In this document: positions 1,190 to 6,480 of the stretch, in pieces
Layout of the letters: the number at the start of each line of letters is the position of its first letter
How positions within the stretch are numbered: position 1 is the first letter of the stretch
Program-made: the position numbers and the translations under genes
Assembly: GCF_946892675.1 (NCBI RefSeq)
Contig: NZ_CAMPOV010000001.1
Coordinates: forward strand, 1,834,033 to 1,898,032
Direction of reading: 5' to 3'
DNA length: 64,000 nt
Source of the DNA: Arthrobacter sp. Marseille-P9274
GTDB lineage: Bacteria; Actinomycetota; Actinomycetes; Actinomycetales; Micrococcaceae
The notes under the pieces: generated by a model
What the model saw: the letters and a program-made list of their open reading frames with translations, nothing else
Database searches by the model: none
What the model was told of the DNA's origin: nothing

Positions 1190-2005
1190 ATGGACAGCGT
1201 CACGCAGATCGACCAGTGGCCGGTGGCGAATGCCTCCACCGCCCTCGTGGGCAGGGACGGCACGGTGCTGGACGCGCACGGCAACCAGCACCGGCCCTAC
1301 CGGCTGGCGTCCGTGACCAAGCTGCTCAGCGCGTACGCCGTGCTGGTCGCCATCGAGGAGGGCGCGCTCGAGCTGGACCAGCCGGCGGGTCCGGAGGGCT
1401 CGACCGTGCGCCACCTGCTGGCCCACTCCAGCGGCTACGACTTCGGCGACCGGACCGTCCGCTTCGCCCCGGGCACCCGCCGGCTCTATTCGAACGCGGG
1501 CTTCGACGTGCTCGGCGAGACGCTCGAGCGGGCCACCGGCATGCCGTTCGCCGACTACCTGGGCGAAGGAGTCCTTCAGCCACTGGGCATGGGCGCCACG
1601 GAACTCAACGGCTCACCCGCCGCCGGTGCAACGTCAACGGTGGGGGATCTGTCCATCTTCGCGGCCGAACTACAGCAGCCGAAGCTCCTGGACCCGGCGA
1701 CGCTGGCCGAGGCCACCACCGTCGTGTTCCCGGGGCTCGCGGGCGTCCTGCCCGGCTTCGGCCGCCAGCCGCACAACGACTGGGGGCTCGGCTTCGAGAT
1801 CCGCAACGCCAAGGATCCGCACTGGACCGGCTCAGCCAGCTCGCCGGCGACGTTCGGACACTTCGGCCAGTCCGGGACCTTCCTCTGGGTAGATCCGCAA
1901 GCCGGTGCTGCGTGCGTGGTGCTGACGGACCGGGATTTCGGACCGTGGGCCGCCGAGGCCTGGCCGACGTACACCGACGCGCTGCTCGCGGACCTCGCCA
2001 ACTGA
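1190..2005 (+). CDS. Serine hydrolase of the beta-lactamase class C / esterase family
   Basis: A 271-residue protein of the beta-lactamase-related (penicillin-binding-protein fold) family. The catalytic Ser41-Val-Thr-Lys44 tetrad, the Tyr100-Ser-Asn motif and a late HFG motif take the places of SxxK, YxN and KTG. The ATG start is chosen because a strong AGGAGG-like site directly follows the oleD stop, 11 bases earlier. No signal peptide is visible, so the enzyme is probably cytoplasmic and more likely an esterase or peptidase than a beta-lactamase. It appears co-transcribed with oleD. A role in olefin or lipid turnover is only a guess from position. Confidence 0.8.
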   Translation: MDSVTQIDQWPVANASTALVGRDGTVLDAHGNQHRPYRLASVTKLLSAYAVLVAIEEGALELDQPAGPEGSTVRHLLAHSSGYDFGDRTVRFAPGTRRLYSNAGFDVLGETLERATGMPFADYLGEGVLQPLGMGATELNGSPAAGATSTVGDLSIFAAELQQPKLLDPATLAEATTVVFPGLAGVLPGFGRQPHNDWGLGFEIRNAKDPHWTGSASSPATFGHFGQSGTFLWVDPQAGAACVVLTDRDFGPWAAEAWPTYTDALLADLAN

Positions 2006-2081
2006 ACTACGACGGCGGCGCCCGGGTACGGGAGCCAGGTCGCCGGCGGCGCACGTCCTGCCGGCGGAGGCGGTCAGCAGC

Positions 2082-3074
2082 TCACCAGCGGCCGTTGCGC
2101 GGGCGGCGCTGGCACACCGGGCAGGTGTAGGACGAGCGGTTCATGAAGGAGTCGCGGCGGATCCTCGTGTCGAGGCCCAGGCCGGCGCAGCGCTGGCAGG
2201 GCAGGCCCTCCCGGCCGTAGGCATTCAGGGACCGGGCGAAGTAGCCGGAGGCCCCGTTGACGTTGACATAGAGCGAGTCGAAGCTTGTTCCGCCGGCCTC
2301 CAGCGCCCGGTTCATCACGTCCCGGGTCGCCTCGACGAGCGCCAGGGCCTCCTTGCGGCGCAGTGTATCCGTGGGGCGGGCGAAGTGAAGCTTGGCGGCC
2401 CACAGCGCCTCGTCGGCATAGATGTTCCCCACGCCGGAGATCAGGCCCTGGTCCAGCAGCGCGCGCTTGATGCCCGTCTTGCGGGCCCGGAGCCGCCGGT
2501 AGAAATCGTCGAAGGAGAAGGCCGGGTCCAGCGGGTCGCGGGCGATGTGCGCGGCTTCCGCGGGGACCAGAGGCAGCGGCGTCTCCGCCAGCCCGCCGGG
2601 GTGGCCGTCCGCCGTGGGCACCAGGTCGGCCAGGAACATCCCGCCGAAGATCCGCTGGTCCACGAACCGGAGCTCGGCCGGCATGGCCCGGCCCTCGGCG
2701 TCCAGGGCCGGACTCAGGTCCAGGCGGACCTTGAGGTGCTTTTCGTCCGGAGCGTCGGCGTCTTCGACCAGCAGCTGGCCACTCATGCCCAGGTGGGCCA
2801 TCAGCGCCAGGCGCGGCGCACCGCCGTCGTTATTTCCGTCCCCGGCGTCCCCGCAGGGATCACCGTCCGCGGACAGGGGCAGCCAGAGGAACTTGCCGCG
2901 CCGGACGGCGTCGACCACGGTGGCGCCTTCGAGGTTGCCGCGCAGGTCCTCGGCGCCGAGGACGTGGCGGCGGACGGAGCGCTCGTCGAGAACCTCGGCC
3001 CGGGTGATGGTGCGGCCGCGCACCCAGCGGGCGAGGCCCCGGCGGACGACCTCGACCTCGGGCAGTTCAGGCAT
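2082..3074 (-). CDS. mutM: Formamidopyrimidine-DNA glycosylase (Fpg/MutM)
   Basis: A 330-residue base-excision repair glycosylase/AP lyase that removes 8-oxoguanine and ring-opened purines. The mature N-terminus PELPEVE supplies the catalytic proline and glutamate; RRGKFLW carries the conserved lysine loop. The C-terminal zinc finger has CQRC and CPVC pairs about 20 residues apart. The protein is longer than the usual 270-290 residues because of acidic and glycine-rich inserts after RRGKFLWL and near the middle. It is the last gene of the tight yceD-rpmF-rnc-mutM run, 8 bases after rnc. Confidence 0.96.
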
Positions 3075-3082
3075 CGGACAGT

Positions 3083-3778
3083 TCAGGCATCGGCGGTTTC
3101 AGCGGCCCGCAGCTGGCGCCAGGAGACTGCCGCGGCTTCCTGCTCCGCTTCCTTCTTGGAGTGGCCCGTGCCCTGCCCGTAGGCGGTGCCGCCGATGTGC
3201 AGGGTGGCCACGAAGGTGCGGGCGTGGTCCGGGCCGGAGCCCTGGACGGCGTATTCAACGCCGCCCATCTTCCTGGCCGCGGCGAGCTCCTGGATGCTGG
3301 TCTTCCAGTCCGTGCCGGCGCCGAGGGCTTCGGCGTCCGCCAGCAGCGGCGCAATGAGCCGCATGACCATCTGCCGGGCCACCTCGATGCCGCTGGTGAG
3401 GTAGGTGGCCCCGATCAGCGCCTCCACGGTGTCGGCCAGGATCGACGACTTGTCCGCTCCATTGGTGAGCTTCTCGCCCTGGCCCAGCAGGATGTGCTGG
3501 CCGATGCCCAGCTCGCGGGCGATCCCGGCCAGTGCGCGGGTACTGACGACGGCGGAGCGCCGCTTGGCCAGGTCGCCTTCCGGCAGTTCCGGGTTGTCGC
3601 GGTAGAGCGCGTCCGTCACGGAGAAGCCGAGGATCGAATCCCCCAGGAACTCCAGCCGTTCGTTGGTGGGCAGGCCGCCGTGCTCGTAGGCGTAGGAACG
3701 ATGTGTGAGGGCAAGACGAAGCGTCTCGGCGTCGATATCGACGCCGAGACGCTCCAAAAGCTCTTCAGTTGAAGGCAT
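3083..3778 (-). CDS. rnc: Ribonuclease III
   Basis: A 231-residue double-stranded-RNA endonuclease that processes rRNA precursors and some mRNAs. The signature [10 protein letters not shown] at residues 39-48 holds catalytic carboxylates, a second acidic motif lies in [10 protein letters not shown], and a C-terminal dsRNA-binding domain occupies about residues 155-225. The gene sits 11 bases after rpmF and 8 before mutM, so all are likely one transcript. Codons 9-20 ([12 protein letters not shown]) are encoded by a perfect 34-bp palindrome, so the start of this message should fold into a long hairpin; see the separate entry. Confidence 0.97.
3720..3753 (-). repeat. Perfect 34-bp palindrome within the 5' coding end of rnc
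   Basis: The half AGCGTCTCGGCGTCGAT is followed immediately by its exact reverse complement, with the centre between 3736 and 3737. It covers bases 26-59 of the rnc coding sequence. Because it is a palindrome, the opposite strand encodes the same peptide [11 protein letters not shown]. In RNA it could form about 15 uninterrupted base pairs closed by a tight loop. Confidence 0.95.
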
Positions 3779-3789
3779 GCCGGACGGGA

Positions 3790-3993
3790 TTAGACGTCGG
3801 CGACCTTGCGGCCCTTGTACTCAAGGAACAGCGCAGTACCGGCCGAATCGGTGACAACCTTGGCCTGGTGCGGCAAGCTGTAGGTCACGCGGCCGTTTTC
3901 GACGGTCTTGACCAGGTTGGGGGCGGTAGCCTTCCACTGGGAACGGCGTGCGCGCGTATTCGAGCGGGACATCTTCCGCTTGGGAACAGCCAC
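3790..3993 (-). CDS. rpmF: 50S ribosomal protein L32 (cysteine-free form)
   Basis: A 67-residue basic protein beginning [20 protein letters not shown], the L32 hallmark. It has no cysteine, so it is the zinc-independent type, unlike zinc-ribbon L32 with two CxxC pairs. It follows yceD by 2 bases, the classic yceD-rpmF arrangement, and precedes rnc by 11 bases. Confidence 0.97.
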
Positions 3994-3995
3994 GG

Positions 3996-4595
3996 CTAAC
4001 TCTCTTCTCTCTCGTCTGACTCTGTACTTGTTGGTGCCTTGTCGGCAACCGTGCCGGCCAGCCCGGCGAGGGCTGCCCAGCGAGGATCCAAGACCTCATG
4101 GTGGTGACCCGGATCCTCTTCAAGGCGCATCCCGCATTCAGGGCACAAGCCTTGGCAGTCTTCCCGGCACACCGGCTGGAACGGCAGGGCTGTCACCACT
4201 GCGTCCCGCAACACCGGTTCGAGATCGATGGAATCGTGCTCAACCCGCCGCTGCTCTTCAGCCTCTTCATCATCCGGGCCCTGATCCTGAGAATCAAATC
4301 CCTCGAAGTAGAAGAGTTCCTGCACCCGAACGGCCTGCTCGTAGGCGATGGGATCCAGGCAGCGCCCGCATTCACCTTTGACGGTGACGGTGGCGGTGCC
4401 GGAGACCAGGACACCTTCGTGGACAGACTCAAGCCTGAGATCCAGCTCCATGTCGGAGCCTTCCTCCACGCCAATGAGTGCCACACCGAAATCCTTCGGC
4501 GTTGGTACATGTTCATTCAGGGTCCGCATGCTGCCGGGGCTGCGCCCGACATCATTGACTCCGATGATCAATCGTGAATTCTGATCATGACTCAT
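3996..4595 (-). CDS. yceD: YceD/DUF177 family rRNA accumulation protein
   Basis: A 199-residue DUF177 protein. Members are needed for normal 23S rRNA accumulation and are almost always encoded just upstream of rpmF, as here. CGRC in the middle and [13 protein letters not shown] near the C-terminus look like metal-binding cysteine sets. I take the ATG at 4595 (MSHDQNSR); a GTG two codons upstream (4601) with a GGGAG further upstream is a possible alternative. The tail is acidic and lysine-poor. Confidence 0.93.
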
Positions 4596-4685
4596 GACCA
4601 CTTTGATGCGAACTCCCTACTGAACATACGACCGACGAACCATCATAGCCCGAACTGCGGCGCAGTCCCAAATGGGCGCACCGGG

Positions 4686-5165
4686 CTACTCGTCCTTCTC
4701 CTGGCGGATCCGCTCCAGCACGGCCTTCGGCACGAACTCCGAGATATCTCCGCCAAGCGCCGCCACTTCCTTCAGCAGGGTCGAGGACAGGTGGGTGTAA
4801 CTGCTCTCGGCCGGCAGGAAGATGGTCTCGACGCCGGTGAGGTGGCGATTCATGTGCGCCATCGGCAGTTCGTAGTGGTAGTCCTGCGTGGTCCGCAGGC
4901 CCTTGAGGATCACGTTCGCGCCGTGGCTGCGGCAGAACTCGGCGAGCAGCCCCTCCCCCATGGGCTCGACCGTGACGCCCCGCAGGTAGGAGAGGGTCTG
5001 GGTCGCCATCTGGAGGCGGGTCTGCAGGTCGAAGCGGTACTTCTTCGCGTAATTGGTCGAGACGGCGACGATGACCTCGTCGTACATGCTGGCGGCACGG
5101 GCGATGATCTCGACGTGTCCGTTGTGCAGGGGGTCATAGGATCCGGGGCAGACGGCGCGGCGCAT
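4686..5165 (-). CDS. coaD: Phosphopantetheine adenylyltransferase
   Basis: A 159-residue enzyme that transfers AMP from ATP to 4'-phosphopantetheine, the penultimate step of coenzyme A synthesis. The nucleotidyltransferase motif GSYDPLHNGH is at the N-terminus and the LSSTLLKE motif (usually ISSTxVR) near the C-terminus. The ATG at 5165 gives the usual family length; the open frame extends upstream but that part is not coding-like. It is transcribed toward yceD across a 90-base gap. In many actinobacteria coaD lies beside rsmD; here two plus-strand genes separate them. Confidence 0.96.
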   Translation of the reverse strand: MRRAVCPGSYDPLHNGHVEIIARAASMYDEVIVAVSTNYAKKYRFDLQTRLQMATQTLSYLRGVTVEPMGEGLLAEFCRSHGANVILKGLRTTQDYHYELPMAHMNRHLTGVETIFLPAESSYTHLSSTLLKEVAALGGDISEFVPKAVLERIRQEKDE

Positions 5166-5238
5166 ATCTACGAATCTAGCCCATCCAACCGGCAAGCTGC
5201 AGCAGCCGGGGCCCATACCAGTGGTATTACTGGGAAGC

Positions 5239-6480
5239 ATGAGCAGAACCGACAGGACTTTGGCCCAGGGACGCCCCGCCACCACCGATGCACCCTGGCG
5301 GCGGGCGGCCGCCGGTGCCAACCTGCTGGGCGCCGACGGACGCCTGGACGCGACCATCTTCGAGGAGATCACCACGCTGGCCGTCCGTACCGGGGCCATC
5401 AACCTGGGGCAGGGGTTTCCGGATGAGGACGGTCCCCGGATCATGTCCGAGGCGGCCCGCGACGCCATCGCCTCCGGTGCCAACCAGTATGCGCCGGGCA
5501 AGGGCATCCCCGCGCTGCGCGAGGCCATCGCCGCGCACCAGCAGCGCTTCTACGGTTTGGACCTCGACCCCGACAACCAGGTCGTGGTGACTACCGGCGC
5601 TACCGAGGCGATCGCGGCGGCGCTGCTGGCGCTCACCGGCCCGGGCGACGAAGTCCTGACTTTCGAGCCCTTCTACGATTCATACGGCGCGGTCATCGGG
5701 CTCAGCGGCGCCACCCACACCACCAGCCCGCTGGCCGCCCCGGACTTCCATCCGGACCTCGAGGCGCTGGAGGCAGCAGTCAGCGGCCGTACCCGCGTCA
5801 TCCTGGTCAATAACCCGCACAATCCGATGGGCAGCGTCTTCACGCGAGCGGAACTCACCCGGATCGTAGAGCTGGCGAACCGGCATGACGCAATCATCAT
5901 CACGGACGAGGTCTACGAACACCTGACCTTCGGCGTCGAGCACGTCCCGGTAGCCACCCTGCCCGGAGCCGCCGAACGCACCCTGACCATCTCCTCCGCG
6001 GGGAAGACCTTCTCCTTCACGGGCTGGAAGGTCGGCTGGATTAGCGGCCCCGCCGAACTCGTTGCGGCCGTCCGGACCGTTAAGCAGTTCCTGAGCTATT
6101 CCTCCGGCACGCCGTTCCAGCCCGCGGTGGCAGCGGGGCTGGCCCTGGAGCAGGACTTCTTCAGCGGCATCTCCTCGAGCCTGCAGGCCAAGCGGGACAT
6201 CCTCGCCGAGGGGCTGCGCGCCGCCGGCCTGGAGGTCTTCCTGCCGGACGGCACCTACTTCATCAACGTCGACGCCGCACCGCTGGGCGTCACGGACGCC
6301 ACCGCCCTGGCTTACCGGCTGCCCGAACTGGTCGGCGTCGCCGCCATTCCGGTCCCGGTCTTCTGCCACCCGGAAGGAGCAGAACGCACCAAGTCGCTGC
6401 TGCGCTTCGCCTTCTGCAAGCGCACGGAAGTCCTCGAGGAAGCCGCGTCCCGGCTCGCCGGGCTCGGGGAACGGCTCTAA
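5239..6480 (+). CDS. PLP-dependent class I/II aminotransferase
   Basis: A 413-residue fold-type I aminotransferase. The PLP lysine is Lys256 in SSAGKTFSFTGWK; NNPHNPMG (about 191-198) and TDEVYEH (about 222-228) are the carboxylate- and cofactor-binding motifs. The sequence resembles the kynurenine/glutamine transaminase and YbdL methionine aminotransferase group; N-succinyl-DAP aminotransferase (DapC) is also possible. An upstream in-frame GTG at 5221 exists, but the ATG at 5239 has a GGGAAG stretch near it. It is followed after 3 bases by a spermidine-synthase-like gene and so probably forms an operon with it. Confidence 0.88.
   Translation: MSRTDRTLAQGRPATTDAPWRRAAAGANLLGADGRLDATIFEEITTLAVRTGAINLGQGFPDEDGPRIMSEAARDAIASGANQYAPGKGIPALREAIAAHQQRFYGLDLDPDNQVVVTTGATEAIAAALLALTGPGDEVLTFEPFYDSYGAVIGLSGATHTTSPLAAPDFHPDLEALEAAVSGRTRVILVNNPHNPMGSVFTRAELTRIVELANRHDAIIITDEVYEHLTFGVEHVPVATLPGAAERTLTISSAGKTFSFTGWKVGWISGPAELVAAVRTVKQFLSYSSGTPFQPAVAAGLALEQDFFSGISSSLQAKRDILAEGLRAAGLEVFLPDGTYFINVDAAPLGVTDATALAYRLPELVGVAAIPVPVFCHPEGAERTKSLLRFAFCKRTEVLEEAASRLAGLGERL

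Follow-up and report, generated by a model that had tools for sequence, protein, structure and literature searches.

A palindrome in the RNase III gene of Arthrobacter sp. Marseille-P9274 as the probable DNA image of a selected mRNA hairpin

Autoregulation of AbsB, the RNase III of Streptomyces coelicolor, was reportedly described by Xu et al. in 2008. Two publications on this enzyme, one of them a review, describe self-cleavage of its polycistronic transcript at two stem-loops, of which one lies within the rnc cistron and the other upstream of it (PMC10126417, PMC2936110). A study of S. aureus describes an RNase III that cleaves its own message at a stem-loop among the codons, catalytic mutants that accumulate two to three times more of the enzyme, and a proposed feedback on its own message (PMC3386247). 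That stem-loop, described there as conserved among relatives, is a bulged helix that is cut on one side, at nt +296 in vitro and with a stop at +306 in vivo. The same study places the E. coli site, rncO, in the 5' leader of rnc (PMC3386247); as described there, feedback also acts through cleavage of the enzyme's own message, but the site is a 5'-terminal stem-loop outside the codons and so does not conflict with the protein sequence.

Here we describe a stem at codons 8-21 of rnc in Arthrobacter sp. Marseille-P9274, and thus not in a 5' untranslated leader as in E. coli-type rncO. It shares with the S. aureus system a stem-loop in the coding sequence, conservation among relatives and a proposed feedback on its own message. 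Cleavage was shown in S. aureus; the Arthrobacter stem, a candidate substrate, spans nt +23 to +62 of the coding sequence in this strain and is nearly perfect. With S. coelicolor it shares an actinobacterial RNase III, its own message and a location in a stem-loop. However, a Streptomyces locus (L079) and two f37 loci that we take to be from streptomycetes (L258 and L264) have 9, 10 and 9 of 15 pairs, respectively, at the hairpin codons, and L079 and L258 form no more pairs than synonymous draws lead one to expect. Hence the site in S. coelicolor is probably a different element. The matches listed by our literature search, for which subscription papers were mostly outside the scope, included no description of an rnc hairpin in Arthrobacter or Micrococcaceae. 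The initial annotation of this DNA had proposed a self-substrate inside the rnc coding sequence; such substrates were already known in S. aureus (PMC3386247) and S. coelicolor (PMC10126417), and the arrangement is ordinary in principle.

The rnc locus and its palindrome

The window, meaning the whole stretch of DNA analysed, is 64,000 nucleotides long. Upstream of rnc lie ORFs that, from their sequences, we take to be yceD-like and rpmF, and downstream lies one that is presumably mutM-like; the ORF list places all four on one strand. Their spacing suggests that rpmF and rnc are probably co-transcribed. The rnc product is a ribonuclease III according to both the NCBIfam equivalog TIGR02191 (221.3 bits, cut-off 166.25) and a match to the solved RNase III structure PDB 2a11 (E 6.7e-81). 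These assignments and an inverted repeat scan confirmed the perfect 34-bp palindrome without spacer that had been noticed at codons 9-20 of this gene. Its arms (3720-3736 and 3737-3753) are 17 nt each and 100% complementary, with zero spacer. When the whole window was scanned for arms at most 10 nt apart, it was the sole fully complementary repeat among 25 listed of the 31 found. The features are collected in Table 1.

Table 1. Coordinates of rnc, rpmF and the elements of the rnc hairpin in the window
Feature	Position	Strand	Basis and remarks
rnc, ribonuclease III, 231 aa	3083..3778	-	ORF list and translation; host gene of the hairpin
rpmF (ribosomal protein L32), presumed identity	3790..3993	-	ORF; immediately upstream of rnc
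Perfect 34-nt palindrome	3720..3753	.	Inverted repeat scan; codon 9 base 2 to codon 20 base 2
5' arm of mRNA stem	3739..3756	-	Codon 8 base 2 to codon 14 base 1; fold, pair counts, codon alignment
Hairpin loop, AUAU in Arthrobacter sp. Marseille-P9274	3735..3738	-	Fold
3' arm of mRNA stem	3717..3734	-	Codon 15 base 3 to codon 21 base 2; fold, pair counts, codon alignment
Codons 20-22, CTT CGT CTT	3713..3721	-	Codon-choice divergence; 3' end of the stem and its flank, with synonymous choice frozen

The initial annotation had also expected a duplex of about 15 bp near the translation start. The fold does predict a duplex there, but with 18 pairs and a 4-nt loop (window 3756 to 3717; z = -5.32, with 0 of 200 shuffles equally stable). 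Of the 18-nt 5' arm in this strain, codons 9-13 are the portion retained in most relatives. A lower helix between codons 6-7 and codon 23, seen in the single-sequence fold, was dropped, as 79.2% of its cells were paired in relatives and zero two-sided changes were found. A scan of 1800-5600 with the covariance models of Rfam 15 gave no match at E<=10 over the hairpin and two chance-level matches elsewhere. On the plus strand, a 203-aa open frame (3161-3772) antisense to rnc repeats the palindrome peptide; this is a mechanical result of the palindrome, and the frame is not likely to be a gene.

Pairing and covariation under the coding constraint

The search for relatives covered the best 80 of 551 loci, and about 100 of the 291 family genomes with an rnc match were sampled, partly as best-scoring and partly to span genera, with membership of Micrococcaceae assigned by record titles or group codes. 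A codon alignment comprised 206 loci and a later one 303. The 178 family loci reduced to 161 distinct rows (74 from named records and 87 from coded genomes), and these rows plus three loci of another family, f6, make up the 164-sequence sets used for the G·U count, MI-APC and the tree. Alignment A1 holds 72 of 126 distinct regions and was hand-enriched for divergent ones.

Synonymous draws that held the peptide and the gene's own codon use produced all 15 stem pairs of the Arthrobacter sp. Marseille-P9274 gene in 0.026% of 100,000 draws (0.00026), in agreement with the earlier remark that the peptide alone does not demand the palindrome. Across the 161 distinct Micrococcaceae genes (3000 draws per gene), a mean of 14.9 of the 15 pairs were kept as Watson-Crick or G·U, against 9.9 in the draws. 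At least 14 pairs were kept in 157 of the 161, the full distribution being 15 in 147 genes, 14 in 10, 13 in 3 and 11 in 1. Individually, 157 of the 161 genes reached P<0.01 and the remaining four were not significant alone. The outer stem is intact and the inner part broken in four relatives (L124, L126 and L131 with 13 of 15 pairs, and L129 with 11). Codons 8-21 were the most stable 14-codon window in all 81 genes folded of the 161.

The initial annotation had asked whether the palindrome survives beyond peptide conservation. This is true of the stem but not of the perfect palindrome, which was retained in 13 of 161 distinct family sequences. It is rarely kept because the hairpin's loop falls at its centre: of 164 sequences, 103, 83 and 89 have a Watson-Crick match at the three respective pairs of codons 14/15. 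The perfection of the palindrome is incidental, and the conserved feature is an mRNA stem of 15-18 bp with a variable loop (codons 14-15). Loss of pairing in relatives with the same peptide had also been raised, and 19 of 19 rows encoding identical residues 10-20 retained 14 or 15 of the 15 pairs; these rows come from the 303 aligned loci with duplicates included, so that the window's own locus appears twice and at least two other genomes are probably present under two ids.

Codon choice in the 161 genes departs most from the rest of the gene in codons 1-24, where the top windows of seven codons come to 1.8 bits per codon, compared with at most 0.37 for windows starting past codon 24. Codons uncommon elsewhere in rnc occupy positions 10 and 19-22, and at codons 20-22 the divergence amounts to 2.62, 2.47 and 2.96 bits, the mean over the gene being 0.29. 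We rest the case for structure on pairing and not on codon bias by itself, because codons 2-5 share this bias, probably for translation start.

Some features of codon choice stand beside the stem itself. The most strongly fixed synonymous choices in rnc are at codons 20-22, codon 10 and codons 2-4. The CTT CGT CTT of codons 20-22 is only partly paired and is more frozen than pairing requires. At codons 2-5 (3764-3775, here CCT TCA ACT GAA), A- or T-ending codons are strongly preferred family-wide, which may come from the usual bias near a start codon or from a small hairpin upstream (CUUC/GAAG in the fold). In rpmF, a codon-choice scan for a second, upstream site gave a mean of 0.56 bits, above the rnc mean, and codons 2 and 3 have a very strong synonymous preference family-wide (3.21 and 2.15 bits).

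Among 219,453 column pairs in the 164 sequences, the pair 12.3-17.1 (the third base of Gly12 and the first base of codon 17) ranked first by MI-APC, and the hairpin column pairs 14.1-15.3 and 9.1-20.3 ranked 5 and 19. Codon 12 is invariant as Gly and codon 17 is variable, and the two bases are paired in 157 of 164 sequences. The combinations are GGC/GCC (Ala), GGA/TCC (Ser), GGG/CCC (Pro) and GGT/ACC (Thr), with GGT/GCC as G·U. Likewise, the third base of Leu20 tracks codon 9 (AAG/CTT, GAG/CTC and CAG/CTG, with GAG/CTT as G·U). Residues 10 and 19 change together as reverse-complementary codons: R/T (CGT/ACG), K/L (AAG/CTT), Q/L (CAG/CTG), H/M (CAT/ATG) and S/T (AGT/ACT). Codon pairs at 10/19 were not reverse complements in 8 of 199 loci; these loci, duplicates included, were preselected for at least 14 of 15 pairs, and the table therefore shows which codon pairs occur and not the frequency of pairing.

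On a tree built from codons 25-222, with a parsimony assignment that is one of several possible, the 16 stem pairs underwent 130 changes, including 34 double changes from one Watson-Crick pair to another, 68 single exchanges between Watson-Crick and G·U, and 19 changes from Watson-Crick to unpaired. Double Watson-Crick changes numbered 13 at 12.3/17.1; the third positions of 13 other Gly codons had 0-4, and no third position of codons 25-222 exceeded 5. In A1 (72 rows), 95.8% of cells were paired (97.7% in the main stem) and nine pairs had changed on both sides; 0 of 500 shuffles reached any of five measures, and 32-45% of cells were paired when the structure was slid. Coupling of codons 21-25 with codons 2-8 was rejected as an extension: its highest values, which involve the third bases of codons 23 and 25, do not resemble base pairing, and 8.3/21.1 alone stood out, weakly, where the stem ends. 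These comparisons show that the rnc mRNA structure is under strong selection, and the covariation suggests that the hairpin forms in the cell.

Distribution of the hairpin among relatives

A model of the hairpin built from many of the tested genes (R1) had its best match at the rnc position in 25 of 25 Micrococcaceae genomes (E<=1.2e-10), and its next matches away from rnc were 2.2e-5 or weaker. As scoring covered, in each genome, the 144 best of several thousand first-look candidates, weak copies elsewhere could be missed. R1 matches at rnc in other families were rejected as evidence of structure, as R1 also scores homologous coding sequence.

Outside Micrococcaceae, where loci were chosen partly because R1 matched them (those of f8 and f19 included), at least 14 of 15 pairs were found in 19 of 115 loci and fewer in 96, and class-wide conservation of the hairpin was rejected on this count. 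Three other Micrococcales families have the full stem. All 15 pairs were present in 8 of 8 genomes of f6 (L155, L157, L164, L287, L290, L291, L292 and L297) and in 6 of 8 of f8 (L244, L284, L294, L300, L302 and L304); the f8 exceptions are L303 with 12 pairs and L305 with 13, its codons read by eye. In f19 the full stem occurs in 2 of 7 genomes (L246 and L247), and the others have 9 to 12 pairs. Isolated among hairpin-free neighbours are a Pseudonocardia bin and two class-level genomes with 14 of 15 pairs (L076, L219 and L230) and L245 with 15. These four stems may be due to chance, and for L076, L219 and L230 independent gain is an alternative. On a rough protein tree, the hairpin state changed at least 10 times. 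The short core LGVxIDxE, self-complementary in GC-rich codons, is present in many other actinobacterial loci. Comparison shows that in Micrococcaceae, and in some neighbouring families of Micrococcales, selection has acted on the hairpin as RNA.

Two records stood out in these searches. A contig titled Vibrio cholerae strain 35D (L060) contains a Micrococcaceae-type rnc with 72% identity over residues 1-226, which is probably contamination or mislabelling, and the rnc match L132 in relative G011 contains an in-frame TAG.

RNase III feedback and its alternatives

On the sequence evidence, we put at about three in four the probability that the palindrome is the DNA image of a selected mRNA hairpin through which RNase III would cleave its own message as feedback. 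RNase III is our candidate reader of the hairpin because the host gene is rnc, no strong copies were found elsewhere in the genomes searched and there is precedent; by analogy, it most likely cuts its own message and so limits the amount of enzyme. The substrate would be a 15-18 bp stem with a short variable loop in codons 8-21 of the rnc mRNA. Its starting point would have been the LGVxIDxE core, which is nearly self-complementary in GC-rich codons. Comparison suggests that this core probably grew into the full stem through the choice of codons, through coupled replacements of the amino acids at 10/19 and 13/16, and through a synonymous base of codon 20 that follows residue 9. RNase III would cut this hairpin and lower its own level. 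A point against cleavage is that the stem is slightly under two helical turns, short for classical two-strand cleavage by RNase III, and cleavage as such does not explain the conservation of the CTT CGT CTT tail. We lean, with less assurance, towards the proposal that residues 9-13 and 16-20, with their largely reverse-complementary codon pairs, would be dictated by RNA self-recognition, the two codons of a pair changing in step to preserve the message as a substrate, and that CTT CGT CTT would be an element of cut specificity.

The chief rival of self-cleavage is that the hairpin is an operon-level element after rpmF, which RNase III may or may not cut, and which would block 3' exonucleases or slow polymerase to give an excess of L32 over RNase III. 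In each of the 161 distinct family loci an rpmF match precedes rnc, and gene order therefore does not distinguish autoregulation of rnc from an action on rpmF; rpmF is also upstream in the 19 of 19 outside loci with at least 14 of 15 pairs. However, it is also found upstream in 73 of the 96 hairpin-free loci. The hairpin is fixed to codons 9-20 of rnc while the end of the rpmF match lies 3 to 93 nt from codon 1 in the 161 loci, which argues mildly against an operon-level role, and no terminator-like site (a GC-rich stem followed by a U-tract, by the scan's rule) was present in 3000-4800. We consider this explanation unlikely.

We give still less weight to binding without cutting, in which RNase III or another protein would repress translation, or to a stem that paces early elongation. 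The stem begins at nt +23, close to an initiating or early elongating ribosome, and the authors of the S. aureus study suggest that structure in the coding sequence may alter elongation speed locally (PMC3386247). Pacing alone, however, would not require each pair to be conserved while the loop sequence varies freely, and among the best 144 candidates in each of 25 family genomes none outside rnc was comparably strong, which makes this pair of explanations rather improbable.

The strand-symmetric sequence in Arthrobacter sp. Marseille-P9274 could also be read at the level of DNA, as an operator for a dimeric DNA-binding protein or as a cruciform. Perfect palindromes occur in 13 of 161 sequences only, and mismatches follow the mRNA strand. 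Among 2460 cells (15 stem pairs in 164 sequences, with the loop pairs of codons 14/15 and the stem end at codon 8 left out), there were 159 G·U, 4 A·C and 16 other mismatches on that strand. Of the G·U cells, 67 are at 11.2/18.2 and are forced by the protein, as the Leu base cannot change; at 12.3/17.1, where both sides are freer, the count is 59 G·U against 3 A·C. All four Watson-Crick types are present at 12.3/17.1, unlike what an operator would show. In the loop codons 14/15, A·C is common (59 cells), as expected for unpaired bases. A search of the window's own genome gave no second site at E<=1 among the 144 best of 5168 first-look candidates that were scored. The bias towards G·U over A·C and the lack of a further genomic site among the candidates scored therefore speak for RNA and not a DNA operator, and we hold a DNA-level role to be very improbable. 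Codon choice, compensatory changes and the direction of wobble all point to mRNA as the conserved molecule. Finally, although LGVxIDxE is partly self-complementary (an expectation of 9.9 of 15 pairs) and pairing is not significant at 0.01 alone in four of 161 genes, the idea that the stem arises without function from a self-complementary peptide written in GC-rich codons is already refuted by the pair and codon counts, namely an observed mean of 14.9 of 15 pairs, a synonymous base that tracks another codon's base at 12.3/17.1 and 20.3/9.1, and the uncommon codons at positions 10 and 19-22.

The rnc hairpin is unusual in degree: a whole family keeps this mRNA structure at a cost to codon usage, and amino acids change in pairs along with it. 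It illustrates with unusual clarity how the structure of an mRNA prevails over codon choice and helps to set amino acids, in a gene whose product is itself the enzyme that reads structures of this kind. For Micrococcaceae, these genes would provide a family-wide natural alignment of a probable actinobacterial RNase III substrate.
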